From Sphingomonas profundi (lineage in GTDB: Bacteria; Pseudomonadota; Alphaproteobacteria; Sphingomonadales; Sphingomonadaceae), in NCBI RefSeq assembly GCF_009739515.1, contig NZ_CP046535.1:3643501-3707500 (forward strand): a stretch of DNA of 64,000 nt, in the 5' to 3' direction. The notes under the pieces were generated by a model, which saw only the letters and a program-made list of their open reading frames with translations, had not been told where the DNA came from and made no database searches. Made by a program: the position numbers and the translations under genes. Below, in pieces: positions 10,331 to 32,018 of the stretch; position 1 is the stretch's first letter, and the number at the start of each line of letters is the position of its first letter.

Positions 10331-10331
10331 C

Positions 10332-11123: not shown

Positions 11124-11153
11124 CGTCCCTGCCTGCGCGAAACCCGCCGCTCC

Positions 11154-12296: not shown

Positions 12297-12339
12297 CGGA
12301 GCCTCCCCGGCGCCGCGGCCCGATCCCCGCCCGATCCGC

Positions 12340-13443: not shown

Positions 13444-13517
13444 GGCAGTCCCTCTCGAGCGACGCCGTCTCGCGAGCGTCTTTTCCGAGTGCGAGGATCG
13501 AACAGCGCCGGATTAAA

Positions 13518-13534
13518 GTCAACCACTTTACTAA
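13518..13534 (+). promoter_or_regulatory. operator-like element in the ADH/ALDH divergent promoter
   Basis: GTCAACCACTTTACTAA lies between the divergent alcohol and aldehyde dehydrogenase genes. It resembles GTCAACCTGTTTACAAG (complement of 32019-32035) and GTAAACGTGTTTACAAG (20984-21000). Which regulator binds is unknown; the MarR protein encoded at 34282 is a candidate. Confidence 0.4.
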
Positions 13535-13592
13535 CTTTCGGGTGACGGGTAGGATGATGCGCAACGACAACAGATTGTTCGAGGATGCCGAG

Positions 13593-15032
13593 ATGATCAT
13601 GGACCGGAGCGCATTCTTCATCGGCGCGGAATGGGTCGCCCCCGCGTCGACCCGCCGCTTCGAGATCGTCGGTGCGTCGACGGGCGACGTCGTGGCGACC
13701 GTTCCCGAGGCGGTCGAGGCCGATATCGATCGCGCGGTCGCGGCCGCGCGGCACGCGTTCGACTCGACCGACTGGGCGACGCGCGCCCCTGCCGAGCGGG
13801 CCGCCGTGATGCGGCGCTTCCTGGCCGCGCTGGCGGCGCGGTCCGGCGATCTGGCGCATGCGGTGAGCATCCAGAACGGGATGCCGATCGCGCTGAGCGG
13901 CCTGCTTGAAGCGCAGTTCTCGCTCGGCGTGCTCGATTATTATGCCGGGCTTGCCGAGGCTGGTAGCAGAGACGACGTGCGGCCGTCGCAGATGGGGCGG
14001 CACACGCTTGTCGAGCGATCCGCCGTCGGGGTGGTCGCCGCGATCGTGCCGTGGAATTTTCCGGTGACGCTGGCGCTCAGCAAGATCGCGCCGGCGATGG
14101 CGGCCGGATGCACCCTGGTCATCAAGCCGTCACCCGGCACGATCCTCGACAGCTATGTGATGGCGGAGGCCGCGCTGGAGGCCGGCGTGCCGCCGGGCGT
14201 GCTCAACTGGGTGGCGGCGGATCGGGCGGCGGGCGCCTATCTCGTCTCGCATCCCGGCGTCGACAAGGTGGCGTTCACCGGCTCGACGGGTGCCGGCCGC
14301 GCAATCGCGGCGCGCTGCGGGGAATTGCTGCGCCCGGTCACGCTCGAACTGGGCGGCAAGTCCGCCGCGATCCTGCTCGACGACGTCGACCTGCCGACCT
14401 TTCTGGCGGGCGTGCCGATGGCGTCGCTGCTCAACAACGGGCAGGCCTGCTATAACGGCACGCGCGTGCTGGCGCCGGTGCGGCGTTACGGCGAGGTGGT
14501 GGATGCGCTCGCCGCGACGATGGCGTCGCTCACGGTCGGCGACGCGCTCGATCCCTCCACCCAGGTCGGCCCGATGGCGTCGGCGGCGCATCGCGACCGG
14601 GTTGAGGGCTATATCGCGCAGGGCAAGCAGGAGGCGCGGCTGGTGCAGGGCGGCGGCCGGCCGACGACGACCAACCAGGGCTGGTTCGTGGAGCCGACGC
14701 TGTTCGCCGACGTGGACAATTCCGCCACCATCGCCCGCGAGGAGATCTTCGGTCCGGTGCTTTCCGTGATCCCCTACGAGTCCGATGCCGATGCGGTGCG
14801 GATCGCCAACGACAGCGCCTTCGGCCTCGGCGGGTCGGTGTGGAGCGGAGATGCCGATCGCGCGCTGGGCGTCGCCCGGCAGGTGCAGACCGGCACGATC
14901 GGGATCAACGGCTACATGCCCTCGCTCGGCTCGCCGTTCGGTGGCGTGAAAGCCAGCGGCATGGGGCGCGAGTTCGGCCCCGAGGCGCTCGGCAGCTATC
15001 AGCAGCTCAAGTCCATCTATGTGATGGGCTGA
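13593..15032 (+). CDS. NAD(P)+-dependent aldehyde dehydrogenase
   Basis: 479 residues if begun at ATG 13593 (second ATG at 13599; GAGG about 10 bases upstream); an upstream ATG at 13542 lacks a ribosome-binding site. Motifs in order: IVPWNFPVTLALSKIAPA, KPSPGT, FTGSTGAGRAI, the catalytic Glu in LELGGKS, the catalytic Cys in NNGQACYNGTR, EEIFGPVLS and SPFGGVKASGMGREFG. It oxidises an aldehyde to the acid and is divergent from the alcohol dehydrogenase gene, so the pair probably acts in sequence. It ends 8 bases from the convergent phosphatase gene. Confidence 0.93.
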   Translation: MIMDRSAFFIGAEWVAPASTRRFEIVGASTGDVVATVPEAVEADIDRAVAAARHAFDSTDWATRAPAERAAVMRRFLAALAARSGDLAHAVSIQNGMPIALSGLLEAQFSLGVLDYYAGLAEAGSRDDVRPSQMGRHTLVERSAVGVVAAIVPWNFPVTLALSKIAPAMAAGCTLVIKPSPGTILDSYVMAEAALEAGVPPGVLNWVAADRAAGAYLVSHPGVDKVAFTGSTGAGRAIAARCGELLRPVTLELGGKSAAILLDDVDLPTFLAGVPMASLLNNGQACYNGTRVLAPVRRYGEVVDALAATMASLTVGDALDPSTQVGPMASAAHRDRVEGYIAQGKQEARLVQGGGRPTTTNQGWFVEPTLFADVDNSATIAREEIFGPVLSVIPYESDADAVRIANDSAFGLGGSVWSGDADRALGVARQVQTGTIGINGYMPSLGSPFGGVKASGMGREFGPEALGSYQQLKSIYVMG

Positions 15033-15040: not shown

Positions 15041-15820
15041 CTACGCGACCATGCGATCGCGGAGCGCGGCAAGCTCGCTCCGCGTCAGGCCGGCGGCGAG
15101 CAGATAGGCGTCGACCCCGCCATGCGCCCGCATGATCGCGGCGAAGCTCTCGGCCAGATAGGATTCGTCCACGCCCATCATTACGTCGAGCGCGTCGGCC
15201 GGCAAGGCGAAGCCGAGATGGGCGGTGGCCAGCGCCTGCGTCGCCGCGATGGCCTCCGCCGATTTGCGGATGCGGCTGGCGAGATAGTCCGCGACGATCG
15301 CATCGTACGGCACGTCGAGCGCAGCGAGGAGCACGGCAGACACGAACCCCGTACGGTCCTTGCCCGCGGTGCAGTGGATCAGCAGCGGCAAGCTACCTTC
15401 GGCGATCCGACGGAACAGATAGGCGATATGGCCAGCCGCCGCCGCCGGAAGCCCGGCATAGACGGCACGCATCGCAGCCCGCGCACCCGCCGCGTCCGGT
15501 GCCTCGCGGAGCTTCGGCCAGGGCTGGTGCTCCGGCGCCAGCGCACCCAGCAAATCGAGGTCGATGGTTTCCGTGCCGCCGGCCGCCCACCACCGATTGG
15601 GCGCGCGACGCCGTTCCGTTGCACCACGCAGATCGCAGACCAGCCGGATGGACTTGGCGGCCAGCCGGTTCGCATCGTCCTCGCCGGGTTCGAGCAGGGC
15701 TTCCGAGCGGTATATCAGCCCCGAACGGACCGTCCCGCCCGTTCGGGTAGGCTCGCCGCCCAGCGCCCGAAAGTTCGGGAACGCCGCGAATATATCCGGC
15801 GGGGCGGGCGATCCGACCAT
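15041..15820 (-). CDS. tyrosine-phosphatase-family protein (CX5R)
   Basis: 259 residues. The P-loop HCTAGKDRTG (C-x5-R) near residues 149-158 defines the dual-specificity/tyrosine phosphatase fold, most like the bacterial Y_phosphatase3 group with an N-terminal NFRALGG segment and RSGLIYRSEAL. It follows the small helical protein gene by 6 bases and ends an operon holding an APH-type kinase. Besides protein phosphotyrosine, such enzymes can use inositol phosphates or other small phosphoesters, so removal of phosphate from a phosphorylated intermediate is possible but unproven. Confidence 0.9.
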   Translation of the reverse strand: MVGSPAPPDIFAAFPNFRALGGEPTRTGGTVRSGLIYRSEALLEPGEDDANRLAAKSIRLVCDLRGATERRRAPNRWWAAGGTETIDLDLLGALAPEHQPWPKLREAPDAAGARAAMRAVYAGLPAAAAGHIAYLFRRIAEGSLPLLIHCTAGKDRTGFVSAVLLAALDVPYDAIVADYLASRIRKSAEAIAATQALATAHLGFALPADALDVMMGVDESYLAESFAAIMRAHGGVDAYLLAAGLTRSELAALRDRMVA

Positions 15821-15826: not shown

Positions 15827-16303
15827 CTACCACGCCGGCGCAGGCAGCGTTTCGGGCTTGAGTTCGAAGCCGAACGGCCGGCACCACTGGCGCTGCTGGT
15901 CGATTATCGCGGCGCTGTGCTTGAGGATAAGCCGCTCGACCTCGACCGAACCGTCGGCCTCGGCGAAGGCGGCGATCGCCTCGCGGCCCTGATGCGTCAC
16001 CTTCTCGTAGTCGGCTATGTCGGCCTCGGGCCGCGCCAGCACGGCGGTGCCCGCCTCGACGAACGCCCCCAGCGCCGCATCGCCCTCGTGCCCCAGTTCA
16101 CGCGCGAGATCGAGGCAGGCGGACAATTCCCAGCGATAGTAGCGGCGCGCCTCCGGCAGCCGCTCCGCGACGAAGGCCAGCGTGGCTATGCTGAGATGGA
16201 CCTGCTCGGCGACATGCTTTTCCGCGCCGGCCAGTGCCGGCGCGACCACCTCACGCAGGGCGCGCATCACGACCTGCAACTGCTTGTCGATCGACTGGAT
16301 CAT
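15827..16303 (-). CDS. small helical partner protein of the APH-type kinase (LvaB-like), copy 1
   Basis: 158 residues, all-helical by appearance, no signal peptide. It is homologous to the 168-residue protein at 24424-24930: both begin M-I-x-S-I-D, then an LREVVAPAL / LAEVILPAL block and LARELG / LARDLC. Its ATG overlaps the kinase gene stop (ATGA). In Pseudomonas putida the small protein LvaB is needed for the APH-family kinase LvaA to phosphorylate 4-hydroxyacyl-CoA; the same gene order and size class suggest the same role. I recall the family as DUF6285, not checked. Confidence 0.8.
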   Translation of the reverse strand: MIQSIDKQLQVVMRALREVVAPALAGAEKHVAEQVHLSIATLAFVAERLPEARRYYRWELSACLDLARELGHEGDAALGAFVEAGTAVLARPEADIADYEKVTHQGREAIAAFAEADGSVEVERLILKHSAAIIDQQRQWCRPFGFELKPETLPAPAW

Positions 16304-17535
16304 GCGACGACCTCCGCATAAGCGGCGCGCAGATCGGCGAGCGCGATGTAGCCCAGAATCGCGACGAAGTTGGTGACGATATCCTGGTGCGTGCCCGCCA
16401 TCAGCGATGCGCGCGCCGACGATCCCAGGGTGAGCACGCAGACGAGATAGCGGTTGTAGATGCGGAAGTAGCGGATACGCTCGGGATCGACCGGCATCCC
16501 CGACGCCTCTCCATAGGCCGCGTACAGTTCCGCCTCGGTCATCATGCCCGAGGCGAGCACCGCGTCGCCATCCTCGGCGACGTGCTGGAAGGTCGGCATC
16601 GCCGCATAGGTCAGATCCTGGTGACGGTCGCCGAGCGCGGCGCCTTCCCAGTCCAGCCACGCGGTGATCGTGCCGCTATCCTCGTCGAACAGGAAGTTGC
16701 CGCTGCGATAGTCGCCGTGGACGATCGAGACGCGATCGAGCACCGGCGCGTGCGCGATCAACCAGCGATAGACCATGTCCATCACAGGCTCCTCCTCGAT
16801 GCGATCCTCCTCCCAGAGACGCCGCATCGCGTTGACCTGCCGGATCACCGAGGCGTTCGATCCCACGGTCGCGCCATCGAAGCTCGGCAGGTGGCTGGCG
16901 ACTTCGCTCGTGTCGATGGCGTGCAGCGTCGCCAGCAGGTTCACGAAATGCGGGGCCAGCCTGGCCCGCAGGGCGGGGCCGTAATTCTGGCCGAGGCCAG
17001 TCACCTTGGCGGCGTCGTGCGTCGGCTTCGCCGATCCGCGCGCGAAGCTGTAGATCATCGCCGGATAGGGGAGGTGGCGCGCCTCTGCATCGACCCAATA
17101 GGGTCTTGGTGCGGGAATGCGGCCGTCGACCGCATTGAGGATCTCGAACTCGCGCCGCCGGCTGGATTCGGTCACCGACGCGGCAGGCTCCATGCGGAGC
17201 ACCAGCGTGACGGTCTCGCCGGGTGGCAGGCCGTTCACGTCGTTGCCCTTCAGGTCGAAGACCATCTGCAGTTTCGACGCGCCGCCCGACAGCCAGCGCG
17301 CATTGTCGATCTCGGCCGGCTCGCCTGTCTCCGCGAGGATCAGCGCGGCCGCACCCTCGACCAGGCGTTCCAGCGACACGGCGCTGTAGCCCGGGCCGTG
17401 GCGTCGCTGCATCTTGCGGGTGAGGACGACGTCGATCTCGCGTTCGGTGGGGAAACGGTCGCGGATCGCGCCGATCACCGCCTCGTCCGGCGCGCGGCGC
17501 TGCGTCTCGTCGAAGCGTAGCCGGTCGTCGGCCAT
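16300..17535 (-). CDS. APH-fold phosphotransferase, LvaA-like acyl-CoA kinase candidate, copy 1
   Basis: 411 residues. The C-lobe shows the kinase signature VHGDYRSGNFLFDE (catalytic Asp, Mg-binding Asn) and WLDWEGAALGDRHQDLTY (DxD-like second metal site); the N-lobe contains WLSGGASKLQMVF and LVLRMEP. This is the aminoglycoside/choline kinase fold, but the catabolic setting points to the ACAD10/11-LvaA branch, which phosphorylates 4-hydroxyacyl-CoA so that an acyl-CoA dehydrogenase-like enzyme can remove phosphate. ATG at 17535, 4 bases after the AttH/CrtC-like gene stop. A paralogue lies at 23252-24427. Drug-resistance function is unlikely. Confidence 0.87.
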   Translation of the reverse strand: MADDRLRFDETQRRAPDEAVIGAIRDRFPTEREIDVVLTRKMQRRHGPGYSAVSLERLVEGAAALILAETGEPAEIDNARWLSGGASKLQMVFDLKGNDVNGLPPGETVTLVLRMEPAASVTESSRRREFEILNAVDGRIPAPRPYWVDAEARHLPYPAMIYSFARGSAKPTHDAAKVTGLGQNYGPALRARLAPHFVNLLATLHAIDTSEVASHLPSFDGATVGSNASVIRQVNAMRRLWEEDRIEEEPVMDMVYRWLIAHAPVLDRVSIVHGDYRSGNFLFDEDSGTITAWLDWEGAALGDRHQDLTYAAMPTFQHVAEDGDAVLASGMMTEAELYAAYGEASGMPVDPERIRYFRIYNRYLVCVLTLGSSARASLMAGTHQDIVTNFVAILGYIALADLRAAYAEVVA

Positions 17536-17539
17536 CCGA

Positions 17540-18511
17540 TCAGCCACCGAATCGATCCGCCATGCCGGCGGAGAGGAAGGCGTGGCCGGTGAAATCGGCG
17601 ATGTGGCTGTAGCCGGTGCCATGCTCGCTCTCCCAGCGCATCAGCGTCTGGTAGGCGACGCTCGACGGATTGAAATTGTACCATGGTGCGGCAGCGATGG
17701 TCGTGCCGCGTGCCGCGTAGGCGATCCCGCGATCGTCCTCGAAGGTGACGTCGGCACGCGTCACCAGCATGTCCGAACGCTTGGCCGACATCCGGGCCGA
17801 GAGCAGCGGCCGGCGCTCGCCATGATCGGCGAGGAAGCCGTATTTGAACGTCTCGTAGACGATCTCCTTCTCGCGGAACACGAGCGAGAAGACGAGGAAC
17901 GCGCTGAGATCGTCGTTCAGGTTGACCTGGATCCAGCTCGCGCCCTTGTTGCCCCAGTCGCGGCGCGGACCCCAGCTCTTGTCCATGCCGTCGATGCAGT
18001 CGATCCTGAACTCCCGGCCACGCAGGACGAGCGAACCGGTGATGCGGCCCTTGCTCTCCATGTGCCCGTTGTTCCAGCCGTCATAGCCCTCGACCTTGCC
18101 CTGGCCGAGCGACGGGACATGCGCGGGATCGTGCGGATCGAACGGATCGCAGATCCCGCGATAGGCCAGTTCGAGCGAGCAATTGCCGTCCAGCGACGTG
18201 TAGCGGAAGTCGCTGTCGCGTTCGTTGTGCGCCTTGAACGACAGCCCGTTGTCGAGCGTGAAATCGTCAAACCGCTCCGGACAGCGCAGGTGCATCTGCG
18301 CGTCATTATGATCGATCTGCCACGGATGAAAGCACATCCCCCGGTGGATCTCGATCGAGCTGTGGCAGATGCCGCGATTGGGGCGCGCCAGGACGTAGAG
18401 ATTGCCGCTGATGCCATCGGCCGGCGACGAGAAGATGACGAACTGGGTTTCGGTCCAGTCGAGATCGTTCGGGTCGCAAGGATGGAACTTAAAATCGTCA
18501 GCGGTAATCAT
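17540..18511 (-). CDS. AttH/CrtC-like protein of unknown function, paralogue 2
   Basis: 323 residues, the same length as paralogue 1 and clearly homologous from end to end (GISGNLYVLARPN, EGYDGWNNGH, KSWGPRRDWGNKGASW, GTTIAAAPWYNFNPSS). No signal peptide, so it acts in the cytoplasm. It heads a tight operon with the APH-type kinase, its small partner and the phosphatase, 28 bases below the TonB receptor gene. CrtC-like enzymes add water to isolated C=C bonds; a hydration that creates the hydroxyl later phosphorylated by the neighbouring kinase would make sense, but is inference. Confidence 0.85.
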   Translation of the reverse strand: MITADDFKFHPCDPNDLDWTETQFVIFSSPADGISGNLYVLARPNRGICHSSIEIHRGMCFHPWQIDHNDAQMHLRCPERFDDFTLDNGLSFKAHNERDSDFRYTSLDGNCSLELAYRGICDPFDPHDPAHVPSLGQGKVEGYDGWNNGHMESKGRITGSLVLRGREFRIDCIDGMDKSWGPRRDWGNKGASWIQVNLNDDLSAFLVFSLVFREKEIVYETFKYGFLADHGERRPLLSARMSAKRSDMLVTRADVTFEDDRGIAYAARGTTIAAAPWYNFNPSSVAYQTLMRWESEHGTGYSHIADFTGHAFLSAGMADRFGG

Positions 18512-18539
18512 CGCGGAACAATCCTCTCCAGCGCCGGGC

Positions 18540-20891
18540 TCAGAAGCGGTATCGCGCCTCGATCAGGAAGGTGCGCGGCTCCGCCGGCACGGCGACGCTG
18601 AGCGCGAAGATGCTCGCGAAGCCGATGCCGCCCGTATAATAGGTCTTGGCGAAGGCGTTCTTGACGAGGCCCGACAGCGCCCAGCCCTTGCCGCCGGACT
18701 GTTCAAGCCCGACGCGGAAGTTGGCGACGGCGTAGCCGGGGATCTTGGTGCCGGGATTGAGCGAACGGCCGGTCGAGCTGAAGAAGTTCGACGTCTGCGC
18801 GAACACATCGCCGTGCAGCACCGCGTTCACCCGCTCCGTCACCGGCGCGGTCACGTCGGCATAGGCCAGCCCCGACCATTTGGGCGTATCGGGGTAGCTG
18901 TCATAGATGGCGATCGCCGTCGTGCCGTCGGTTCCGAGCACCGCGACGCGGTTCTTGGTGAAGCGAGCGTGGGTGTAGTTGATGTTGCCGCCCAGCGTCA
19001 GCCAGCTGACCGGCCGGATGTTGCCGTCAAACTCGACGCCGGTGATCTGCGCTTGCGGCACGTTCACTGTGGTCGCCGCGATGAACCCGTAGATCGAGCC
19101 GTAGAAGGCGCGCTGAACGTTGTCGACCCAGGTGTGATAGACGGCGAGGTTGGCGTTCACCGGCATGGTGCCGAGATAGCCGTGATATTTGGCGCCGCCC
19201 TCGACATCGGTCGCGACCTCGGGCCGGTACTCGCCGCCCGACTGATCCGCGAACCCCGGCGTCGGCGGCCCCTGATTGTTGAAGCCGCCGCTGCGGAAGC
19301 TGCGGCTGCCCTTCGCATACAGCAGCAGGTTCGACGTGACCTGGTTGTTGATGCCCGCCGTCCAGCTCAGCCGGCTGAACGTGTCCTTCTGCGGGGCGAT
19401 GAACCGCCCATCGGCGTAGAAGGGCACCAGCGTCGGGTTCGCGGTCGGGCTGTAGAGATCGTTGGCGTCGCGCGCGAACGTGACCTCTTCCGAGGTGTAG
19501 CGAACGCCACCCGTCAGCTTGAAGCCCGCCAGCCCGGTGTCGAACGTGGCCTGCGTGTAGCCCGCGATCGATCGGCTGCGCGTCGTGCCGGCGTTGATCT
19601 GAACCGGCGCGCCCAGCTCGGCCTCGATGAAGCTGTTGTTCACCGTGTGGTCGCGAATATCCGCCGCATAGCCGCCGATGACATATTCGAGCCGGTCGTC
19701 GAAGATCTTGCCGAGCAGCTGGAGCTCGTCCGAATATTGCCGGATCACGCCGAAGCTGCCCAGCTCGCCCGTCTTGGCGGTGCCGCGACCGTCGATGCCG
19801 AACTGCGTGCCGTCGATATCGCCGCCGTCGAAGAACTTGGTGCGGACATAGCCGAACACATTCTTGATCGTAGTGTCCTCACCGATCTTCCACGAGGTGA
19901 TGTTCGACACCACCACCTTGGTGAGATGATGGGAGTTGAGGGAGTCGACGTTGACCGTATAAGGCCCGCGCGCGCGCTGATCGATGCCGGCCTGGACAAG
20001 ACCCGGGATCAGCACGTTGTTGGGGACGACCGGGTTGCCGGGCACGTTCGCGCTGGGCGGCAGCACGCTGTAGACGGGCGCCACGATACTGGTTCCGTCG
20101 TCGTTGAGATAATCGACGACGAGGCTGTTCGTGATCGTCGAGGTGGGCATGAAATCGACGCTGAGGCGGCCCGCCTTGCGATCGATCTCACCCAGCCGCG
20201 AGCCGTAGAACAGATTGGTCTGATAGCCGTCGCGCACGCGGTAGGAGCCGGCGACGCGCACCCGCAGCACGTCGGGCACCAGCGCGCCGCCGATCGCGCC
20301 CTCGACGCGCATCTCGTCAAAGCGGCCGACGCCGACCGAGCCGTAGCCGGACAGTTCCTCGGTCGGCTTGGCGGTGGTGAACAGCACCGCGCCGCCGGTG
20401 GCGTTGCGGCCGAACAGCGTGCCCTGCGGACCCTTGACCACCTGCACCGACTGCAGATCATAGAAGGCGCTCTGGCCAACGCCGCCGACCTGCACCTCGT
20501 TGACGTAGGGCAGCACCGCCGGCAGCGAGTTCGAGTAGGTATCGACAGTCTGGCCGCGCAGCGAATAGTTGAGCTGGTTGTCGTTTTGCGACGCACGCAC
20601 GGTCAGCCCCGGCACCGCCACCTGGAGATCGCGCTCGGACGAGATCGCCTGGTTGGCGAGCGTGGTGCCCGAGAGGACCGACACCGCCACCGGCGTCCGC
20701 TGGAGAGCCTCGGAACGGCGCTGGGCGGTGACGATGATCTCCGTCTGGTCGCCATCGGCCGGCCGCTGCGCGGGCTGCGAGCCATCCGGCGGCGTGGCCT
20801 GCCCGCTGCTGCTTATCTGTGCGAACGCGGGAGTTCCAACGCCCAACAGCGTCGCTGCGCCAGAGACCAGCAAAGCCGTCCGCAAGGTCAT
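18540..20891 (-). CDS. TonB-dependent outer membrane receptor
   Basis: 783 residues counted from the third of three adjacent ATG codons (20897, 20894, 20891); GGGAGAGG ends right before the first, so the third has the best spacing. Signal peptide to about residue 25 (GTPAFAQ), TonB-box-like EIIVTA at 51-56, plug with VVKGPQGTLFGRNATGGAVLF, beta-barrel ending ARYRF. It heads the AttH/CrtC-like, kinase, partner and phosphatase operon and lies below an inverted-repeat element, so it probably imports the substrate of this island. Confidence 0.93.
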   Translation of the reverse strand: MTLRTALLVSGAATLLGVGTPAFAQISSSGQATPPDGSQPAQRPADGDQTEIIVTAQRRSEALQRTPVAVSVLSGTTLANQAISSERDLQVAVPGLTVRASQNDNQLNYSLRGQTVDTYSNSLPAVLPYVNEVQVGGVGQSAFYDLQSVQVVKGPQGTLFGRNATGGAVLFTTAKPTEELSGYGSVGVGRFDEMRVEGAIGGALVPDVLRVRVAGSYRVRDGYQTNLFYGSRLGEIDRKAGRLSVDFMPTSTITNSLVVDYLNDDGTSIVAPVYSVLPPSANVPGNPVVPNNVLIPGLVQAGIDQRARGPYTVNVDSLNSHHLTKVVVSNITSWKIGEDTTIKNVFGYVRTKFFDGGDIDGTQFGIDGRGTAKTGELGSFGVIRQYSDELQLLGKIFDDRLEYVIGGYAADIRDHTVNNSFIEAELGAPVQINAGTTRSRSIAGYTQATFDTGLAGFKLTGGVRYTSEEVTFARDANDLYSPTANPTLVPFYADGRFIAPQKDTFSRLSWTAGINNQVTSNLLLYAKGSRSFRSGGFNNQGPPTPGFADQSGGEYRPEVATDVEGGAKYHGYLGTMPVNANLAVYHTWVDNVQRAFYGSIYGFIAATTVNVPQAQITGVEFDGNIRPVSWLTLGGNINYTHARFTKNRVAVLGTDGTTAIAIYDSYPDTPKWSGLAYADVTAPVTERVNAVLHGDVFAQTSNFFSSTGRSLNPGTKIPGYAVANFRVGLEQSGGKGWALSGLVKNAFAKTYYTGGIGFASIFALSVAVPAEPRTFLIEARYRF

Positions 20892-20983
20892 CATCATCCT
20901 CTCCCATTTCCTGACGCGCCGGTTGGCCCGGGCGCTCGCGCATGCCGAACTGTCGTCGGCTGTGATCTTGGTCGTACCTGTAC

Positions 20984-21000
20984 GTAAACGTGTTTACAAG
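20984..21000 (-). promoter_or_regulatory. inverted repeat upstream of TonB receptor gene
   Basis: GTAAAC-GT-GTTTAC (20984-20997) is a perfect 6-base inverted repeat with 2-base centre, followed by AAG. The 17-base unit differs at only two positions from GTCAACCTGTTTACAAG in the 31968-32083 divergent promoter. It lies about 95 bases upstream of the receptor start, a reasonable place for an operator. Confidence 0.5.
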
Positions 21001-21065
21001 AATTATTTGCGCCGTCGTGATCGCTCGCGCTGCCGACGGCGATCGGGCGCCAGCTTCGTCCGGAT

Positions 21066-22034
21066 CTAGGTGCGCGCGCGGATCAGGCCGCGATTGCGTG
21101 TCGTGTAGACGCGACTCAGGCCGATCTGCTGCACGCCGTTGCCGATGAGATCCCCGTGCGCGACCCGCATCGACGCCTGCAGATAGGTGTTCGATGGATA
21201 GGGCGCCCAGTAGCAGCCGTTGACCGTGGAGTAGGTGAAGCGAAACGCCTTGCCGCGCGTGTCGACCACGTCGACCATCCCGCCCATCGGCATCGCGTTG
21301 CGATATTCCTGCGTGCCGGTTGACGAGACGACGCCGTAAAGTCCACCGTCGTCAAGCACATAGCCGCTGACATGTGGCCCGAGTGAGTCGCGCCGCGCCA
21401 GATCGTGCACCGTGAACAGGTGGCAGGTCAGCGCCTCGCCGAAGCTTGCGTGCCACCAGATCACCGCCGAATTGTCACGCTCCTCGCGCGGTCCCCAGCT
21501 CCGGTCGCCCGTATCGACGCAATCGACCCGGTAGCGTTTGCCGCGAACGACCAGCTCGCCGGTAATGCGATACGTCACATCGTAATGGCCCGACCATGAC
21601 GTGTCCCACGCCGGACCGACGCGCGCGGCGGCCGTGGGATCCATCGCCGGATCGTTGATGTCGAACGGCGCATGCAGCGCGACATAGTCGAGATGAAAGC
21701 TCGTATCGTCGAACCCTTCATAGTCCACGCGATAATGGCGCGTCGGATCGACCGCCTTGATCGACAACCCGTTTTCGAGCGTGAAGGCGGTAAAGTCCTT
21801 CGGGCAGGGAAGATGCTGCATGTCGTCGACGTAGAGCTGTTCCTCCCAGAGGTCGGTGATCTTGTCCATGATCGTGATATCGACGGCGCATACGCCGAGC
21901 CGCGGCCGAGCGACGACATAGACCGTGGCATTGATATTGGCGTCCGGCACGGCGAACGGCAGAGCGAGCGTCTCCACCCAATTCCACGCGCTTTGTTCGG
22001 TGAAATGGAATTGTGCGTCCTGATCGACGATCAT
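21066..22034 (-). CDS. AttH/CrtC-like protein of unknown function, paralogue 3
   Basis: 322 residues, more diverged than paralogues 1 and 2 but with the same plan: N-terminal MIVDQDAQFHF, ENGLSIKAVDP (ENGLSFKAH in the others), YRVDCVDTGDRSWGPREERD in the centre. No signal peptide. ATG at 22034 with CAGGAGAGCG upstream; a start 45 bases earlier would add an unconserved leader. Transcribed alone toward the TonB receptor gene promoter and divergent from paralogue 4. Function unknown; see the CrtC-like argument for the family. Confidence 0.83.
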   Translation of the reverse strand: MIVDQDAQFHFTEQSAWNWVETLALPFAVPDANINATVYVVARPRLGVCAVDITIMDKITDLWEEQLYVDDMQHLPCPKDFTAFTLENGLSIKAVDPTRHYRVDYEGFDDTSFHLDYVALHAPFDINDPAMDPTAAARVGPAWDTSWSGHYDVTYRITGELVVRGKRYRVDCVDTGDRSWGPREERDNSAVIWWHASFGEALTCHLFTVHDLARRDSLGPHVSGYVLDDGGLYGVVSSTGTQEYRNAMPMGGMVDVVDTRGKAFRFTYSTVNGCYWAPYPSNTYLQASMRVAHGDLIGNGVQQIGLSRVYTTRNRGLIRART

Positions 22035-22100
22035 CCTGCGCTCTCCTGCTGCCGCCTTCTTGCCGAAGCCCGCGGCCATTCTATCTCAGCCCACAGACTA

Positions 22101-22114
22101 GTTCACCAGTTTGC
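22101..22114 (+). promoter_or_regulatory. weak operator-like element between paralogues 3 and 4
   Basis: GTTCACCAGTTTGC lies in the 276-base divergent region 22035-22310 and partly matches GTCAACCTGTTTAC found at 32019-32035 (complement). Four of fourteen positions differ, so this could be chance. The rest of the region shows no other clear signal apart from the ribosome-binding sites. Confidence 0.25.
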
Positions 22115-22310
22115 GTTTCGCAAGGGCGTCAGGTGCGCACCGGGCAGGGGGAAACGGGCTGTCGGGGCGGTGAATCGCGCGATTGGCCGAGCAGTCAGCC
22201 ATGTTCGTCATCCTGATCTCGCATCAAAACGTCTTGAACAAGAACACCGCTTTACGATAAGTCCAATGTCGTCGGACGCGCGGCAGGATGCGTCCCGGAG
22301 AGGATGCCCC

Positions 22311-23255
22311 ATGCGCTTTGAGGATATTGTTTCGGACGTCCCGACGCTCGCGGACGAGCATGACGACCGGCACCGGCTGAGCGCCGAATCGCATGCGCGC
22401 GAGGCGGCGGCATTCATGTTCGCGCTGCCCGAGAAGGGCTTGGCGGGCTTCCTCTACCCGTGGGTGGACAATAAGGGGCTGGCCGGTTCGGCGGTGTGCC
22501 TGTTCGGCCCCTCCCTGGCCGAGCCGGTCAAGGAACGGTTCGAAGAGGTGCCCGTGCCCGATTCGATGACCTTCCACGACTGGCAGGTCAGCGGCCTGAC
22601 GATGCGGCTCGGCGAACCGCATCGCAGCGTCGATCTGTCGTTTCAGGGCCAGCGCGTCCAGATCGAATGCCATTATGAGGCGATGCACCCTCCTTATGCC
22701 TTCAGCTCGCACGAGGATGGCTGCCCGTCTTACTATGCGGACGATCGCACCGAGCAACATGGCCGGCTGACCGGCACGCTGACGATCGACGGAACGCGGC
22801 ACGAGATCGATACCTTCATGCAGCGCGACCATAGCTGGGGCACGCGCATCTGGGGACTCAATCAGCACTATAAGTGGTTTCACGCGACGACCGCGAGCGC
22901 TGCCGTGCATTTCTTCGAGATGCAGTCCTTCGGTCGCACGCTGCTGCGCGGCTACGTGTTCAAGGACGGTCGCATGAGCGAGATCCGCAGCGTCCGCTAC
23001 GATTTCGTCTATGACGACAACATGCACCACGAATCGATCGACGTCGTGGCAGTGGACGCCGCCGGCCGTACCACCGCGATCGCGAGCAAGGTGTTCGCCA
23101 AGTTCCAGTACGATGCCGATCCGATGATCATGCTCAACGAAGGCGCGACCATCGTCGAGATCGAAGGAGAGACCGGCAGCGGCTGGTGCGAATTCTGCTG
23201 GAACATGACCTATTACCAGTTCGCCAGGCAGCACGTCGCGCAGTTCGGCAAATGA
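22311..23255 (+). CDS. AttH/CrtC-like protein of unknown function, paralogue 4
   Basis: 314 residues. The central MQRDHSWGTRIWGLNQHYKW is the version of the SWG-R motif nearest to the general AttH/hydroxyneurosporene-synthase-like family; the N-terminal half (GLAGFLYPWVDNKGLAG, DWQVSGLTMRL) is also of that pattern. Start ATG 22311 with GGAGAGGATG upstream. It overlaps the next kinase gene by ATGA, exactly as a paralogue pairs with a kinase on the other strand at 16.3-18.5 kb. Cytoplasmic, reaction unknown. Confidence 0.83.
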   Translation: MRFEDIVSDVPTLADEHDDRHRLSAESHAREAAAFMFALPEKGLAGFLYPWVDNKGLAGSAVCLFGPSLAEPVKERFEEVPVPDSMTFHDWQVSGLTMRLGEPHRSVDLSFQGQRVQIECHYEAMHPPYAFSSHEDGCPSYYADDRTEQHGRLTGTLTIDGTRHEIDTFMQRDHSWGTRIWGLNQHYKWFHATTASAAVHFFEMQSFGRTLLRGYVFKDGRMSEIRSVRYDFVYDDNMHHESIDVVAVDAAGRTTAIASKVFAKFQYDADPMIMLNEGATIVEIEGETGSGWCEFCWNMTYYQFARQHVAQFGK

Positions 23256-24427
23256 CGGCGGAGCCCGACGTCGAGGCCGTGCCAGTCGGCAAGGTCGGAA
23301 ATATGCGGGACATCGAGCCGGCCGTCGCCGCGGTCCTGGACAGGCGCCGGCTGCGCAAGGCCGCCGGTGTCTATCGCGCGCGCACCGAGGATGATGTCCA
23401 GGCGCGTCTCAACGCCTTTCTTGCCGAGGAGGCGCCGGGTGCGCGCGCCGATGCGCTGCAGCGGATGGGCGGCGGGGCGTCGAAGGAGCAGTTCAGCTTT
23501 ACCATCGCCGATGGCGAGCATGCGGGCCGCTATGTGCTGCGCATGGAGCCGGCGCAATCGATTTCCGAATCGGATCGTCGCCGCGAGTTTGAGATACTGG
23601 ACGTCTTTCGCGGCATCGTGCCTGCGCCCGAACCCGTCTGGCTCGACGCCGAGGGCGACAGGCTCGGTCAGCCGGGGGCGATCATGCGCTTCGTCGGCGG
23701 CGTCACGAAGCCGAGCCATAACGGCCGAACGGTCTCCGGGCTGGGCACGTTGCTGGGCGCTGACCTGCGTGAGCGGATCGGCCCGCAGTTCATCGATCAT
23801 CTGGTCGCGATCCACGCGCTCGACTGGCGGACCGCGCATCTGCCGACGTTCCAGGTGCCCGATGCCGATCCGCAGCAGGCCGCGCGCTGGCAGCTGAACT
23901 GGTGGGCGCAGGTCTGGCGCGAGGATCGCGTCCACCCGATCCCGGCGGTCGCGATGGCCGAGCGCTGGATGCGCGAGAATCTTCCCGCCGCACACGAACT
24001 GGTGCTGGTCCACGGCGACTATCGCACCGGCAACTACCTGTTCGACGAGGAGAGCGGCGAGATCGTCGCGGTGCTCGACTGGGAACTTGCCCATATCGGC
24101 GATTTTCACGAGGACCTGGCCTGGGCGATGCAGCGTGCGTTCGGCGCCTATGAGGATGGCGCCTATCGGGCAAGCGGGCTCTATCCGCGCGAGGAGATGA
24201 TCGCGCGGTACGAGGCGGCGTCGGGCCGACGCGTCGACCGCCGCACGCTGCGCTTCTACGAGGTGCTGGCGGCGTACAAGACCATCATCATCGTGCTGGC
24301 GACCGGGCTGAGATCGGCCCGCGATCACCACAACCATCAGGACGTGCTGCTCACCTGGATCGCGCCGGCGGGGCATATCTTCCACGCCGAGATGTGCGAT
24401 CTTCTGCGGCAGGAGATTGCCTCGTGA
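23252..24427 (+). CDS. APH-fold phosphotransferase, LvaA-like acyl-CoA kinase candidate, copy 2
   Basis: 391 residues. Kinase signature VHGDYRTGNYLFDEESG and VLDWELAHIGDFHEDLAWAM; N-lobe MGGGASKEQFSF and YVLRMEPAQS. It resembles copy 1 over its whole length (for example SDRRREFEILD / SSRRREFEILN). Starts at an ATG overlapping the AttH/CrtC-like gene stop, and its own stop overlaps the GTG of the small partner gene. This order repeats the module at 15.8-18.5 kb. A role in phosphorylating a hydroxyacyl-CoA, as LvaA does, is inferred from family and partner. Confidence 0.87.
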   Translation: MTAEPDVEAVPVGKVGNMRDIEPAVAAVLDRRRLRKAAGVYRARTEDDVQARLNAFLAEEAPGARADALQRMGGGASKEQFSFTIADGEHAGRYVLRMEPAQSISESDRRREFEILDVFRGIVPAPEPVWLDAEGDRLGQPGAIMRFVGGVTKPSHNGRTVSGLGTLLGADLRERIGPQFIDHLVAIHALDWRTAHLPTFQVPDADPQQAARWQLNWWAQVWREDRVHPIPAVAMAERWMRENLPAAHELVLVHGDYRTGNYLFDEESGEIVAVLDWELAHIGDFHEDLAWAMQRAFGAYEDGAYRASGLYPREEMIARYEAASGRRVDRRTLRFYEVLAAYKTIIIVLATGLRSARDHHNHQDVLLTWIAPAGHIFHAEMCDLLRQEIAS

Positions 24428-24930
24428 TCCCTTCGATCGACGATCGCCTCGACAGCATGGCGCGCGCACTCGCCGAGGTGATCCTGCCGGCGCTTCCGGC
24501 CGACCGTTCGCTGGCGATCGAGCAGGCGTCGCTCGTCCTCGCCCATATCGGCATCCTGCGCGATCATATCGACGCGGCGGCGCGCTTCGAACGGCGCGAG
24601 GCCGATGCGATGCTCGCCCTTGCACGGGACCTTTGCGACGGGGCGGCGGGGGGTGAACGCACGATGGCGGCCGCCGCTGCGCTGCGCACGGCGATCGACG
24701 CCGCCAGCGTCGACACGCCGGCGGATGCGCGCGCCACCACCTGTCGGATCGGCGAGGCGGTCGAGGCCCTGATCGACGCCAGCGGCGTCGATGGGCGTGC
24801 CGACTTCAAGGCGCGTTCGTTCGACAGCGTCGTCGCGGCGGGGCAGGTGAGCGCGGCCCGCGACCGGGCGTGGAATCAGGCCGCCGGTTTCGAGGCGGCG
24901 GACACGCAGCACGCGCCTGCAGACTGGTAA
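24424..24930 (+). CDS. small helical partner protein of the APH-type kinase (LvaB-like), copy 2
   Basis: 168 residues, predicted all-helical, Ala-rich. Start is a GTG at 24424 overlapping the kinase stop (GTGA); the next upstream ATG frame would run inside the kinase gene. Residues 1-70 align with the 15827-16303 protein (IPSIDDRLD / IQSIDKQLQ, LALARDL / LDLAREL). The C-terminal 60 residues are more variable. Obligate pairing with an APH-type kinase twice in this window supports an LvaB-like role in kinase activity or stability. Confidence 0.8.
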   Translation: MIPSIDDRLDSMARALAEVILPALPADRSLAIEQASLVLAHIGILRDHIDAAARFERREADAMLALARDLCDGAAGGERTMAAAAALRTAIDAASVDTPADARATTCRIGEAVEALIDASGVDGRADFKARSFDSVVAAGQVSAARDRAWNQAAGFEAADTQHAPADW

Positions 24931-24970
24931 TCCACGGCCAAGTCTCGACGAGATGGCTGGCCGAGCCCGG

Positions 24971-25906
24971 TCAGGCCGTCATGCCCATCGCCGCGCGCGC
25001 CTCTGCATAGTCGGCGACGAGCCAGTCGATATAGTCGGCCGCCGGTTCCGATCGCGTCACCGCGCCGATCCCCTGGCCCGCGCTCCAGATATCGCGCCAC
25101 GCCTTGCTGTTCGAACCGCCACCGGCGATGCTGATTTCGGCGCCCTCCGCGCGCACCAGCGCCGCCGGATCGAGCCCGTTCTCCCGGATCGACGGGATCA
25201 GGAAATTGGCGTTCACGCCGGTAAAGCAGTTGGTCAGCGCGATATCCTTGGCGGCGCTGTCGACGATCATCTGCTTGAAGGCGGCCTGCGTGTTCGCCTC
25301 TGTGCTGGCGAGGAAGGCGGAGCCGATATAAGCGAGATCCGCACCGAGCACCTCCGCGGCCAGCACCGATCGGCCGGTGGCGATACAGCCGGACAGGATG
25401 AGCAGCCCATCCCACCAGCGCCGTATCTCCTGCATCAGCGCGAAGGGTGAGAGATCGCCGGTATGACCGCCGGCGCCCGCGCCGATCGCGATGATGCCGT
25501 CCACGCCCATCTCGGCGCACTTGCGCGCATGCCGGTCCTTGATGACATCCTGGAAGACCAGCGAACCATTGGCCTGTAGCGCCCTGACCAGATCGGCGTT
25601 GGCGGCGAGTGCCAGGACGACGATCGGCACCTTGTGGCGCAGGATGACATCGAGATCGGCATGGAGGCGATCGTTGGAGCGGTGCGCGACGAGGTTGATG
25701 CAGTAGGGCGCCCCGCCCACGGCCTCGCGGATACGTGCGATATCCTCGTCGAGCGCGGCGGTGCTGCGCGGATTGAGCGCGGGCATGGAGCCGATGATGC
25801 CGGCGCGGCACTGCGCGATCACCAGATCGGCGGTCGATGCGATAAACATCGGACCCGCCATGACGGGCAGGCGGAGCCGGGCGCGCAGGTCCGCCGCCAG
25901 GCTCAT
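24971..25906 (-). CDS. nitronate monooxygenase-like flavoprotein (NMO/IpdC family)
   Basis: 311-residue FMN-dependent TIM barrel of the NMO/2-nitropropane dioxygenase superfamily: LPVMAGPMF near the start, GAGAGGHTGDLS (phosphate loop and catalytic-type His), SGCIATGRSVLAAEVLGAD and YIGSAFLAS. Despite the family name, members in catabolic clusters act on acyl-CoA; IpdC of steroid-ring degradation oxidises a hydroxyacyl-CoA ring intermediate. It ends the leftward operon 31967-24971, its ATG overlapping the SDR stop (ATGA), so an IpdC-like role is more plausible than nitronate oxidation. Confidence 0.88.
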   Translation of the reverse strand: MSLAADLRARLRLPVMAGPMFIASTADLVIAQCRAGIIGSMPALNPRSTAALDEDIARIREAVGGAPYCINLVAHRSNDRLHADLDVILRHKVPIVVLALAANADLVRALQANGSLVFQDVIKDRHARKCAEMGVDGIIAIGAGAGGHTGDLSPFALMQEIRRWWDGLLILSGCIATGRSVLAAEVLGADLAYIGSAFLASTEANTQAAFKQMIVDSAAKDIALTNCFTGVNANFLIPSIRENGLDPAALVRAEGAEISIAGGGSNSKAWRDIWSAGQGIGAVTRSEPAADYIDWLVADYAEARAAMGMTA

Positions 25907-26817
25907 ACCGGATCCCAGGTGAAGACGTCGCCCGATCGATGCAGCGGATAGAAATCATTGGCGAACTGATCGAACACCCGCTCGGCGATCGCCTCAGGCG
26001 TCCAGCCCTCGGCGGTGTGCGCGGTGCGGATCGGGCGCGGCTGCGAGAAGAGGTAGATCTCGTTGTTGCGAACGCCGAAGATCTGGCCCGTCACCCGCGC
26101 GCCCTCATCCGCGCAGAGCGCCACGACGAACGGCGCGATCTTTTCCGCGACGAGCTTCTTCAGGCCCTCAACGCGCTTCTGCTGTTCGGGCGTCTCGTTG
26201 GGGATCGAACTCACCATGCGCGTCCAGGCGAACGGCGCGACCGCGTTGGAGCGGACGTTGAACCGCTGCATGTCGAGCGCGATCGACTTGGAGAGGCCGA
26301 CGATACCGAGCTTGGCCGCCGCGTAGTTCGCCTGGCCCATGTTGCCGACCAGCCCCGAGGTGGACGTCATGTGGACGAACGCGCCCGACGCCTGCTCCTT
26401 GAAATAGGGCGCGGCGGCGCGGCTGGTGTGGAAGCTGCCCCTCAGATGCACGGCCAGCACCGCGTCGAAATCGTCGGGCGTCATCTTGTGGAACAGCACG
26501 TCGCGCAGATTGCCGGCATTGTTCACGACGGCATCGATCCTTCCGAAATGGTCAATCGCCGTCTTCACCATCGCGCAGCCGCCGGCCCACTCGGCGACGC
26601 TGTCGTGATTGGCGACCGCCCGGCCGCCCATCGCGACGATCTCGGCGGCGACCTGCTCGGCCGGCGATCCCTCGTCTGCGCCGCTGCCGTCAAGCGCGAC
26701 GCCGAGATCGTTGACCACCACCGCCGCGCCGGCACGCGCGAGATCAAGCGCGATGCCGCGCCCGACGCCGCGCCCGGCGCCGGTGACGAGCGCGACCTTG
26801 CCGTCCATCATTCCCAT
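25903..26817 (-). CDS. SDR dehydrogenase, multifunctional-enzyme (HSD17B4) type
   Basis: 304 residues. TGAGRGVGRGIA cofactor loop (12-23), NNAGNLRD, and active-site S152/S154, Y165, K169 in TSTSGLVGNMGQANYAAAK. The long C-terminal tail and VVVNDLG after strand 2 match the (3R)-hydroxyacyl-CoA dehydrogenase domain of peroxisomal multifunctional enzyme 2. It would oxidise a 3-hydroxyacyl-CoA with NAD+. ATG at 26817; a second in-frame start at 26808 is possible. It sits between the acyl-CoA dehydrogenase and NMO-like genes. Confidence 0.9.
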   Translation of the reverse strand: MGMMDGKVALVTGAGRGVGRGIALDLARAGAAVVVNDLGVALDGSGADEGSPAEQVAAEIVAMGGRAVANHDSVAEWAGGCAMVKTAIDHFGRIDAVVNNAGNLRDVLFHKMTPDDFDAVLAVHLRGSFHTSRAAAPYFKEQASGAFVHMTSTSGLVGNMGQANYAAAKLGIVGLSKSIALDMQRFNVRSNAVAPFAWTRMVSSIPNETPEQQKRVEGLKKLVAEKIAPFVVALCADEGARVTGQIFGVRNNEIYLFSQPRPIRTAHTAEGWTPEAIAERVFDQFANDFYPLHRSGDVFTWDPV

Positions 26818-26828
26818 GGGTGTCGTCC

Positions 26829-28013
26829 TCAATAGCTCTTGGGCAGGCCGAGGACCTTCTCGGCGATGAAGCTCATGATGAGCTGTTCGGTGATCGGCGC
26901 CAGCCGGGTCAGCGCGGCTTCGCGGTACAGGCGCTCGACATGATATTCCTTGGCGTAGCCGAAGCCGCCATGCGTCGCCACCGCCTGCCAGGCCGCATCG
27001 TGGCAGGCGCGCGCGGCGAGGAACTTGGCGCTGTTGGCCTCGGCGCCGCACGGAAGCCCGCTATCGTAAAGCGCGGCCGCCTTCTGGACCATCAGCCACG
27101 CGCTTTCCAGATACATCCACCGCTCGGCGAGCGGATGCTGGATACCCTGGTTCATGCCGATCGGCCGATCGAAGACGGTGCGTTCCTTGGCGTAGTTGGC
27201 TGCGCGGCGCAGGGCGTCCGATCCGATGCCCATCGCCGCCGCCGCGATGAGGATACGCTCGGGATTGAGGCTGTGGAGGATGTAGCCGAAACCCTTGCCC
27301 TCCTCGCCGATCCGGTCCTCGTCGGGGATGAACAGGCCGTCGATGAAGATCGCGTTCGAGTCGACGGCCTTGCGGCCCATCTTCGGTATCAGGTGCACGT
27401 CGATCTTGCTGCGATCGAGATCGGTGTAGAAGATGGTGATGCCGTCGGTCGGCCGGCTCACATCCTCGAACTTGGTCGTCCGGGTCAGCAGCATGATCTT
27501 GTTGGCGACCTGCGCGGTCGAGGTCCAGACCTTCTGGCCATGGACGACATAGCCGCCGGGCACCTTCTCCGCGAAGGTCTTGATCCGCGTCGTGTTGAGG
27601 CCGGCATCGGGCTCGGTGAAGCCGAAGCAGCACTGGTCCTCTCCCGAAACCAGCCGCGGCACCCAGCGCGCCTTCTGATCGGGCGTGCCCTTCACGACGA
27701 TGGGGTGCGGGCCGAACAGATTGATATGGATGGTGGACGAGGCGGCGAAGCCGCCGCCGCACGACGCCACCTCGCGTATCATCGTCATCGCCTCGGTGAC
27801 GCCAAGGCCCGAGCCGCCATATTCCTCGGGCATGGTGATGCCGAGCCAGCCACCGTCGGCCATCGCGCGATGAAAGTCCTTCGGGAACTCTCCGGTATCG
27901 TCGCGGTCGAGCCAATATTCGTCGTCGAACGGTGCGCAGACGGCGCGCACGCCCTCGCGGATGGCGTCGAGGTCTTCCTGGGTGGGGAGGGGGCGGGAAT
28001 CGCTCACGGTCAT
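26829..28013 (-). CDS. acyl-CoA dehydrogenase
   Basis: 394 residues. CCFGFTEPDAGLNTTRIKT is a variant FAD/substrate loop, with N where most have SD; GQKVWTSTAQVAN, NPERILIAAAAMG (candidate base in helix G) and THGGFGYAKEYHVERLYREA follow. The loop variant and PERI helix set it apart from the other three dehydrogenases of the window, suggesting another substrate, perhaps alpha-branched or cyclic. The ATG at 28013 overlaps the stop of the CitE-like gene (ATGA). Confidence 0.92.
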   Translation of the reverse strand: MTVSDSRPLPTQEDLDAIREGVRAVCAPFDDEYWLDRDDTGEFPKDFHRAMADGGWLGITMPEEYGGSGLGVTEAMTMIREVASCGGGFAASSTIHINLFGPHPIVVKGTPDQKARWVPRLVSGEDQCCFGFTEPDAGLNTTRIKTFAEKVPGGYVVHGQKVWTSTAQVANKIMLLTRTTKFEDVSRPTDGITIFYTDLDRSKIDVHLIPKMGRKAVDSNAIFIDGLFIPDEDRIGEEGKGFGYILHSLNPERILIAAAAMGIGSDALRRAANYAKERTVFDRPIGMNQGIQHPLAERWMYLESAWLMVQKAAALYDSGLPCGAEANSAKFLAARACHDAAWQAVATHGGFGYAKEYHVERLYREAALTRLAPITEQLIMSFIAEKVLGLPKSY

Positions 28014-28879: not shown

Positions 28880-29328
28880 GCCGGCCGCGCCAGCATCAGC
28901 GCGGATCGCGTCGTCCGGCACACCACCTCGTCATGCTGGTTGAGCCCGACATGCTCGAAGGTGACGATGCCCTGACCCGGGCGAGACTTGCTTGGCCGCA
29001 GCGCCTTGACGGTGGTTTCGGAGCGGATCGTGTCGCCCGAGAATACCGGCTTCGGGAACACCGTATCCGTCATCCCGAGATTGGCGACGGTGGTGCCGAA
29101 CGTCGTATCCTGCACCGACAGGCCGACCACCAGGCCGAGCGTGAAGATCGAGTTCATCAGCGGCCTGCCGAACTCCGTCGAGGCCGCATAGGCGTGGTCG
29201 ATATGGATCGCCGCCGGATTGTACGTGAGCGACGAGAACAGCATGTTGTCCATGTCGGTCACGGTGCGGCGGATCTCGTGGACGAACACGCGCCCGATCT
29301 CGAATTGCTCGAAATACAGTCCTGCCAA
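28876..29328 (-). CDS. MaoC-family hydratase, mesaconyl-CoA-hydratase type
   Basis: 150-residue single hot-dog domain. DNMLFSSLTYNPAAIHIDHA is the N-x-x-x-H-x-D hydratase signature in the form typical of mesaconyl-CoA hydratases and partners of CitE-like lyases; TEFGRPLMNSIFTLGL follows. It would add water to an enoyl-CoA. Its gene is located directly ahead of the CitE-like lyase gene with an ATGA overlap, and 9 bases below the thiolase stop, all in one operon. Confidence 0.9.
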   Translation of the reverse strand: MAGLYFEQFEIGRVFVHEIRRTVTDMDNMLFSSLTYNPAAIHIDHAYAASTEFGRPLMNSIFTLGLVVGLSVQDTTFGTTVANLGMTDTVFPKPVFSGDTIRSETTVKALRPSKSRPGQGIVTFEHVGLNQHDEVVCRTTRSALMLARPA

Positions 29329-29337
29329 GACAACCTC

Positions 29338-30537: not shown

Positions 30538-30539
30538 GA

Positions 30540-31967: not shown

Positions 31968-32018
31968 CCTCACCGCTTCTGCTGTTCGACACCCGCTTGT
32001 TGACAGGATCGAACATAC

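Follow-up and report, generated by a model that had tools for sequence, protein, structure and literature searches.

Organization of the locus

The stretch of DNA analysed here, hereafter the window, covers 64 kb (C1:3643501-3707500) of the 4.54-Mb, single-contig genome of Sphingomonas profundi. Among its genes, which were called by codon usage, are two copies of a three-gene module made up of a DUF7065/7064 gene whose product has an AttH/CrtC fold, a gene for an APH-fold kinase, and a gene for a small helical protein. Module 1 occupies 15827-18511 on the reverse strand and module 2 occupies 22311-24930 on the forward strand, and in both the kinase and small-protein genes overlap by four bases (ATGA and GTGA). 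An earlier note on this DNA had drawn attention to two such pairs on opposite strands, each headed by an AttH/CrtC-like gene, and the arrangement is present where that note placed it.

In module 1, a DUF7065/7064 protein of type b (17540-18511, 323 aa), a predicted phospho-lyase by its Pfam match and DKSWGPR motif, is followed by small-molecule kinase 1 (16300-17547, 415 aa, module clade 1, Pfam APH E 4e-25) and by five-helix partner protein 1 (15827-16303, 158 aa), which is remotely DUF6285/LvaB-like by hhalign and falls in a family that co-varies with the kinases. Module 2 begins with a DUF7064/7065 protein of type a (22311-23255, 314 aa), also a predicted phospho-lyase, in this case from its structural model, PDB match and profile. 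Kinase 2 (23252-24427, 391 aa) is assigned to module clade 2 by the tree and has the stronger Pfam APH match (E 3e-32); five-helix partner protein 2 (24424-24930, 168 aa) completes the module. These two kinases are the only members of the module clade in the genome (574-599 bits), the next kinases scoring 67-70 bits.

The leading proteins resemble 25-phosphosteroid lyase

DUF7064 scores above the Pfam gathering threshold (24.7 bits) in the products of four window genes, namely the leading genes of the two modules (22311 and 17540), a third gene between the modules (21066-22079, reverse strand, 337 aa, Pfam E 5.5e-8, motif GDRSWGPR) and a fourth at 6749-7720 (reverse strand, Pfam E 1.2e-12). 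They form two subfamilies with 18% identity between them, type a (22311-23255) and type b (17540-18511, 21066-22079 and 6749-7720), and both types occur together in 11 of 55 loci.

The model of the 22311-23255 product is of high predicted accuracy (pLDDT 96.7), and its top Foldseek matches in the PDB are the structures of 25-phosphosteroid lyase (25-PSL), released in 2026 (9g4c/9fzn/9g2i; E ~1e-14, TM 0.70). VIA-align gives Z 25.6 against this lyase over 268 residues (root-mean-square deviation (rmsd) 2.8), Z 25.2 against AttH NE1406 (2ich; rmsd 3.5) and Z 21.9 against kievitone hydratase, with pericyclases below 25-PSL; the AttH/CrtC-like fold that had been suggested for the leading protein is thus borne out. 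The sequence profile of the DUF7064 family separates these candidates, matching 25-PSL with E 3.7e-8 and kievitone hydratase, the next hit, with E 0.24. By hhalign, type a is closer to 25-PSL (95.7%, P 1e-8) than type b (87.8%).

The RDRSWG segment of 25-PSL aligns to the DHSWG motif of the DUF7064 family, and the motif aspartate (D173 in DHSWG) is conserved in 55 of 57 members, the exceptions being the 6749-7720 product and one other protein (L109). The predicted lyase component of the modules in the window has the 25-PSL fold together with the D-x-S-W-G motif. Within this same motif, the product-bound lyase entry 9g4c differs from 9fzn by a change of D to N, a difference from which we infer that the aspartate of DxSWG probably matters for catalysis.

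The fourth DUF7064 protein of the window (6749-7720) has asparagine in place of the motif aspartate (VNKSWGPR), and its gene does not adjoin a kinase gene. To judge by this substitution, it may have lost phosphate elimination or may catalyse another reaction.

The kinases are nearest to LvaA-like kinases

The module kinases retain the HGDxxxxN and LDWE motifs. Searches with their profile ranked Rv3168, 9o56, 25-hydroxysteroid kinase (25-HSK), 3dxp and ACAD11 (66-102 bits) above the Mph and APH kinases (25-28 bits), and in the phylogenetic tree the module kinases form a clade of their own (support 100/99), separate from an equally supported clade of kinases associated with DUF6285 (100/99). 25-HSK groups with Rv3168 (100/99) and 3dxp groups with ACAD11. 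When further kinases from the S. profundi genome were added to the tree, the module and DUF6285 clades came together with moderate support (92/92), so that the nearest kin of the window kinases among those compared are the LvaA-like kinases encoded beside DUF6285, although they lie outside that clade. Orthology of a window kinase to 25-HSK was considered and rejected on the tree and on scores against the module profile (93 bits for 25-HSK and ~400-600 bits for members). The view that these kinases are related to the LvaA type rather than to drug kinases is upheld by the profile ranking and by the tree.

A 477-aa kinase encoded elsewhere in the S. profundi genome (L126:503-1936, L154; C1:4445500-4447950) is extended at its N terminus by ~150 residues, which read as a helical domain; its gene overlaps the DUF7064 gene that follows. 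Such a protein may be a naturally occurring fusion of the small partner with the kinase.

The small partners are remotely LvaB-like

The two small proteins are homologous to each other (phmmer E 1.5e-7, 32% identity) and so belong to one family, as the earlier note had stated. Neither has a match in Pfam (E 0.01) or NCBIfam, and a sequence search of the PDB with them returned nothing credible. To compare them with DUF6285, which we take to be the family of LvaB, in part from the genes present at loci like L143 and L145, we built one profile of 98 small proteins, drawn from 77 named loci found through the kinase and from earlier loci, and another of 23 DUF6285 members. The two profiles align over the first 65 residues (hhalign 78%, P 1.7e-5), with ALxxVVLPAL set against FLxxxxxPxL, whereas reversed and column-shuffled controls gave P values of 0.2-0.7. 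A smaller set of small proteins aligned to DUF6285 over the whole length (35%, P 7e-5). The earlier note had called these proteins LvaB-like and had proposed a profile search against DUF6285 as the check: there is no direct Pfam match to that family, but the kinship is recovered in profile-profile comparison, and on these alignments the small proteins appear to form a family whose likeness to LvaB is distant rather than plain.

Small protein 2 was modelled with high predicted accuracy (pLDDT 94.8) as five helices (5-23, 29-73, 78-92, 99-123 and 126-150). The model has no credible match in the PDB (Foldseek E >1; VIA-align Z <=7, the noise level for helical bundles) and is therefore neutral on an LvaB fold. 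DUF6285 genes themselves adjoin, overlap or are fused to an APH kinase gene in 25 of 25 loci examined. Searches for DUF6285 (PF19802) in the S. profundi genome gave sub-threshold matches only, and none was found in the genome of Pseudomonas borbori. We found no paper on DUF7064, DUF7065 or DUF6285 in the literature searched.

Recurrence and co-variation of the module

To sample the module beyond S. profundi, we took the 77 best-scoring loci of a longer list of matches to the kinase alignment, with flanks of up to 9 kb (shorter on some contigs). A gene for the small protein is present in 72 of these loci and a DUF7064 gene in 54; other neighbours include a tyrosine-phosphatase-like gene (18), a zinc-dependent alcohol dehydrogenase (19), a TonB-dependent receptor (19), an acyl-CoA dehydrogenase (ACAD) matching those of the window (16), an AlkB-like gene (13) and a cytochrome P450 (10). 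Sampling through the small protein in Sphingomonadaceae gives a similar result, with 28 of 30 copies adjoining a module kinase and the other two lying on stretches of 1.6 and 2.3 kb, and of 11 DUF7064 genes sampled, 5 adjoin a kinase. The association of the module genes is not due to chance. Most of the named relatives identified by similarity belong to the Sphingomonadaceae, and the family of this genome is one with very many genera sampled.

Distances among kinases and among small proteins are strongly correlated (Mantel r 0.868, 71 pairs), with none of 1000 permutations higher (permutation maximum 0.137). Co-inheritance within an operon can also yield such a correlation. However, in none of the eight comparisons within loci that hold two modules does the swapped partner fit a kinase better than its own, a tie being the most that it achieves (1.24 for own vs -0.76 for swapped in the window), which suggests that the small protein is a dedicated kinase partner.

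Some loci depart from the simple three-gene form. Two module-clade kinases stand in direct tandem in four of them (L090, L106, L116 and L119), preceded in some by a small gene that matches weakly, and one of the two might make a diphosphate or the pair might form a heteromer. A metagenome-assembled genome (MAG) of Sterolibacteriaceae (G240; L090, L091, L093, L097, L103) holds ~12 module-clade kinases in 2.5 Mb, several of them accompanied by DUF7064 with no small gene within reach.

Acyl-CoA dehydrogenases and the nature of the substrate

The earlier note had proposed that the kinases phosphorylate a hydroxyacyl-CoA and that a neighbouring ACAD-like enzyme then removes the phosphate, as in the LvaAB system. 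The kinship of the kinases with those beside DUF6285, the remote DUF6285-likeness of the small proteins, and the presence in the window of four ACAD genes and many other enzymes of CoA esters are all consistent with this scheme. Phosphate-eliminating ACADs of the LvaC/ACAD10/11 type are marked by an aspartate (PMC12440821), and most ACADs encoded beside DUF6285 have it, as part of DGPDEVH or DGASEVH. In the window ACADs the residue at this position is G or I (YGGSSE, APITEQ, AGGSIE and AGGANE), so that none has the aspartate of the LvaC type. Moreover, the steady neighbour of the kinase across the sampled loci is not an ACAD matching those of the window (16 of 77 loci, against 54 for DUF7064) but a protein resembling 25-PSL; the constancy of this neighbour points to a free alcohol as the substrate and to elimination by the lyase. 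In other words, the earlier proposal is supported on the kinship of kinase and small protein and not supported on the ACAD partner and the hydroxyacyl-CoA substrate, and we regard phosphorylation of a hydroxyacyl-CoA by these pairs as unlikely.

The surrounding catabolic island

The modules lie within a region rich in catabolic genes. A TonB-dependent outer-membrane receptor (18540-20897, reverse strand, Pfam Plug E 1e-11) sits between them and is a probable uptake route for the substrate. After module 1 is a tyrosine-phosphatase-like protein (Y_phosphatase3; 15041-15820, reverse strand, 259 aa, Pfam E 9.6e-56), which possibly clears stray or dead-end phosphate esters.

Several gene sets have counterparts in the Castellaniella defragrans monoterpene island, from which we took the geo and mrc names by gene order (PMC4109377). 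At 8771-15032 are genes for an AMP-ligase (46% identical to its counterpart in C. defragrans), an enoyl-CoA hydratase, an ACAD, a geoA-like zinc-dependent alcohol dehydrogenase (47%) and a geoB-like aldehyde dehydrogenase (61%). A beta-oxidation set on the reverse strand at 25903-31973 encodes a short-chain dehydrogenase/reductase (SDR, 70%), an ACAD (79%), a CitE-like lyase (63%), a MaoC protein (68%), a thiolase and a hydroxymethylglutaryl-CoA (HMG-CoA)-synthase-like protein. The forward-strand set at 32084-36733 (SDR, ACAD, MarR, SDR, thioesterase and enoyl-CoA hydratase) resembles the mrcC/B/D/E ring-cleavage genes, so that homologues of mrcB (72%), mrcC (62%), mrcD (54%) and mrcE (68%) are clustered together in the window. 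The Y_phosphatase3 family is also represented in the C. defragrans island. The suggestion of a pathway for a cyclic or branched compound gains from these identities (54-79% to the monoterpene island), which favour a cyclic or isoprenoid one.

The module itself occurs in such settings. In C. defragrans DSM 12141, the kinase, small protein and DUF7064 genes lie directly before that for Ldi, the linalool dehydratase/isomerase, and the DUF7064 protein there is 38% identical to the 21066-22079 product; the match to the kinase (C22:28064) contains one TAG, and an open frame was found at 28202-29260. Thauera terpenica carries the triad together with genes for a phosphatase and an HMG-CoA-synthase-like protein, the Sterolibacteriaceae MAG is another carrier, and the module recurs in many degraders of terpenes, steroids and hydrocarbons. 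In Novosphingobium resinovorum (L043) a region is near-collinear with window positions 22311-31973 (ACAD 91%).

A second ACAD/thiolase/HMG-CoA-synthase-like set, in part 48-64% identical to T. terpenica loci, lies at the right edge of the window (60711-63927), and the island may therefore extend past it. At 46042-48836, an FAD amine-oxidase-like gene lies beside a Rieske ring-hydroxylating oxygenase, with an amidohydrolase on each flank; these genes may serve an oxygenation in this pathway or in one next to it.

Proposed mechanism and alternatives

We propose that each module probably encodes a kinase, its dedicated partner and a phospho-lyase that act together in the ATP-dependent dehydration of an alcohol, likeliest a tertiary isoprenoid alcohol. 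Hypothetically, the kinase, held or shaped by the small helical partner, would phosphorylate a hydroxyl group that is hard to eliminate as water (ATP + R3C-OH -> R3C-OPO3), and the DUF7065/7064 lyase would then expel the phosphate, leaving an alkene. An allylic methyl group of this alkene could be oxidised and a CoA ester formed, which would then enter the ring-cleavage and beta-oxidation enzymes encoded nearby. The two modules have divergent kinases, which suggests two hydroxyl groups or two substrates. We infer both reactions, the need for the small protein, and the tertiary isoprenoid substrate from gene order, family membership, fold, conserved motif residues, co-variation and recurrence in terpene and steroid degraders. 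The isoprenoid setting supports the proposal, because the C. defragrans triad adjoins Ldi and neighbouring window genes are 54-79% identical to those of the monoterpene island.

Several observations weigh against this interpretation. We know of no activity for the module kinase clade, the small family or these DUF7064 proteins. No DUF7064 gene is present in the flanking DNA examined of 23 of the 77 loci, and the window kinases are not nearest to 25-HSK, which belongs with Rv3168. A search of the S. denitrificans genome found no homologue of the small protein, and 25-HSK is monomeric (PMC8449060). Finally, the fold scores of the leading protein place 25-PSL and AttH NE1406 in a tie, with pericyclases and kievitone hydratase close behind, and because these scores are nearly equal the DUF7064 protein could be a hydratase or an isomerase.

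One form of the last objection holds that DUF7064 is a CrtC/kievitone-hydratase-type enzyme making a tertiary alcohol, which the kinase traps, activates or detoxifies until a phosphatase-like enzyme releases the phosphate. The fold shared with kievitone hydratase and AttH and the phosphatase-like gene in 18 loci would fit, but the sequence profile prefers 25-PSL (E 3.7e-8) over kievitone hydratase (E 0.24), most loci lack a phosphatase, and kinase and DUF7064 are tightly linked, making this a rather improbable account. Still less probable, and to our minds far-fetched, is that two kinases in series build a diphosphate that DUF7064 ionises in the manner of a terpene-synthase-type lyase: double modules and tandem kinases do recur (L055, L060, L061, L074, L084, L106, L116, L119), yet most loci have a single kinase, each kinase comes with a separate partner that co-varies with it, and the substrate of 25-PSL is a monophosphate. 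That these are ordinary phosphotransferases inactivating antibiotics or xenobiotics, with no tie to catabolism, is scarcely credible, since beyond the Pfam APH fold and weak NCBIfam APH(3') matches they reach none of the resistance-kinase cut-offs (at best 40.9 of 205 bits), Rv3168, 25-HSK and ACAD11 outrank the Mph and APH kinases in their profile, and the gene context is catabolic.

Beyond this locus, we put forward a wider hypothesis, to which we give a little less than an even chance. It holds that the module is a widespread, unnamed ATP-dependent dehydratase, composed of a kinase that needs a small subunit and of a DUF7064 lyase, which shares a common root with LvaAB, ACAD and lyase having been exchanged in evolution. 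Such a system, found in Proteobacteria and Actinobacteria in up to ~12 copies per genome, would strip tertiary or otherwise unreactive hydroxyls from terpenoids, steroids and hydrocarbons. Our proposal assigns a testable reaction to the function-less Pfam families DUF7064 and DUF7065 and to the unnamed small family, suggests how terpene degraders may deal with tertiary alcohols, which hinder the breakdown of terpenoids, and points to candidate biocatalysts for the conversion of tertiary alcohols to alkenes.

Comparison with known systems

The closest functional parallel is in Sterolibacterium denitrificans, where 25-HSK attaches phosphate to tertiary C25 alcohols, to be eliminated by a lyase that was then unknown (PMC8449060). 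We located the 25-HSK gene through a published primer (L121:9635-10774) and that of 25-PSL in L149; references for the system are PMC8449060 and PMC11061730, and its PDB entries are 9fsg, 9fzn, 9g2i and 9g4c. As in the window, an APH-fold kinase is combined with a lyase that shares fold and motif with the DUF7064 proteins, and the two-step ATP-dependent dehydration that these enzymes perform in the degradation of an isoprenoid side chain is the scheme that we propose for the modules. However, the genes for 25-HSK and 25-PSL are ~46 kb apart, whereas those for kinase, partner and lyase in the window adjoin or overlap, and 25-HSK is on another branch of the kinase tree.

The LvaAB/DUF6285 pairs share with the modules an APH-fold kinase whose gene overlaps that of a small helical protein; their kinase clade is the nearest to that of the modules and their small proteins are remotely similar. 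They differ in that the small family of the window is not Pfam DUF6285 and in the habitual neighbour, which for DUF6285 is frequently an ACAD, often of the LvaC type, and for the small family of the window is DUF7064. In two of 21 wider DUF6285 loci (L127 and L129) a DUF7064 gene stands before the pair, and after it an enoyl-CoA hydratase takes the place of an LvaC-type ACAD; these loci are intermediate in kind between Lva and the window module. In ACAD10 and ACAD11, too, a hydroxyl is phosphorylated so that the phosphate can be eliminated (PMC12440821, PMC11342911), but there the kinase is fused to an ACAD with the catalytic aspartate, the substrate is a 4-hydroxyacyl-CoA, and neither DUF7064 nor a small partner is involved.

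In the Rv3168-Rv3169 operon of Mycobacterium tuberculosis (3ats; PMC5340868), as in the window, a kinase adjoins a DUF7064-family protein, and the 22311-23255 product matches the NCBIfam family Rv3169_fam with E 1e-13, albeit under the NCBIfam cut-off. Unlike the window kinases, Rv3168 groups with 25-HSK, outside the module clade. Because of this grouping and of its DUF7064-family partner, the mycobacterial pair may likewise be a kinase and a phospho-lyase. The C. defragrans monoterpene island has geo- and mrc-like genes in common with the window, and in the type strain the triad lies beside ldi. The published table of the island names no kinase or lyase (PMC4109377); if present in strain 65Phen, the triad genes would fall among its hypothetical proteins.

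Levulinate LvaAB, 25-HSK/25-PSL of anaerobic cholesterol degradation and Rv3168-Rv3169 could thus be united as variants of one principle, phosphorylate and then eliminate. Within it, the system described here would act like 25-HSK/25-PSL with a kinase nearer to LvaA, and is a member of neither as these are defined.

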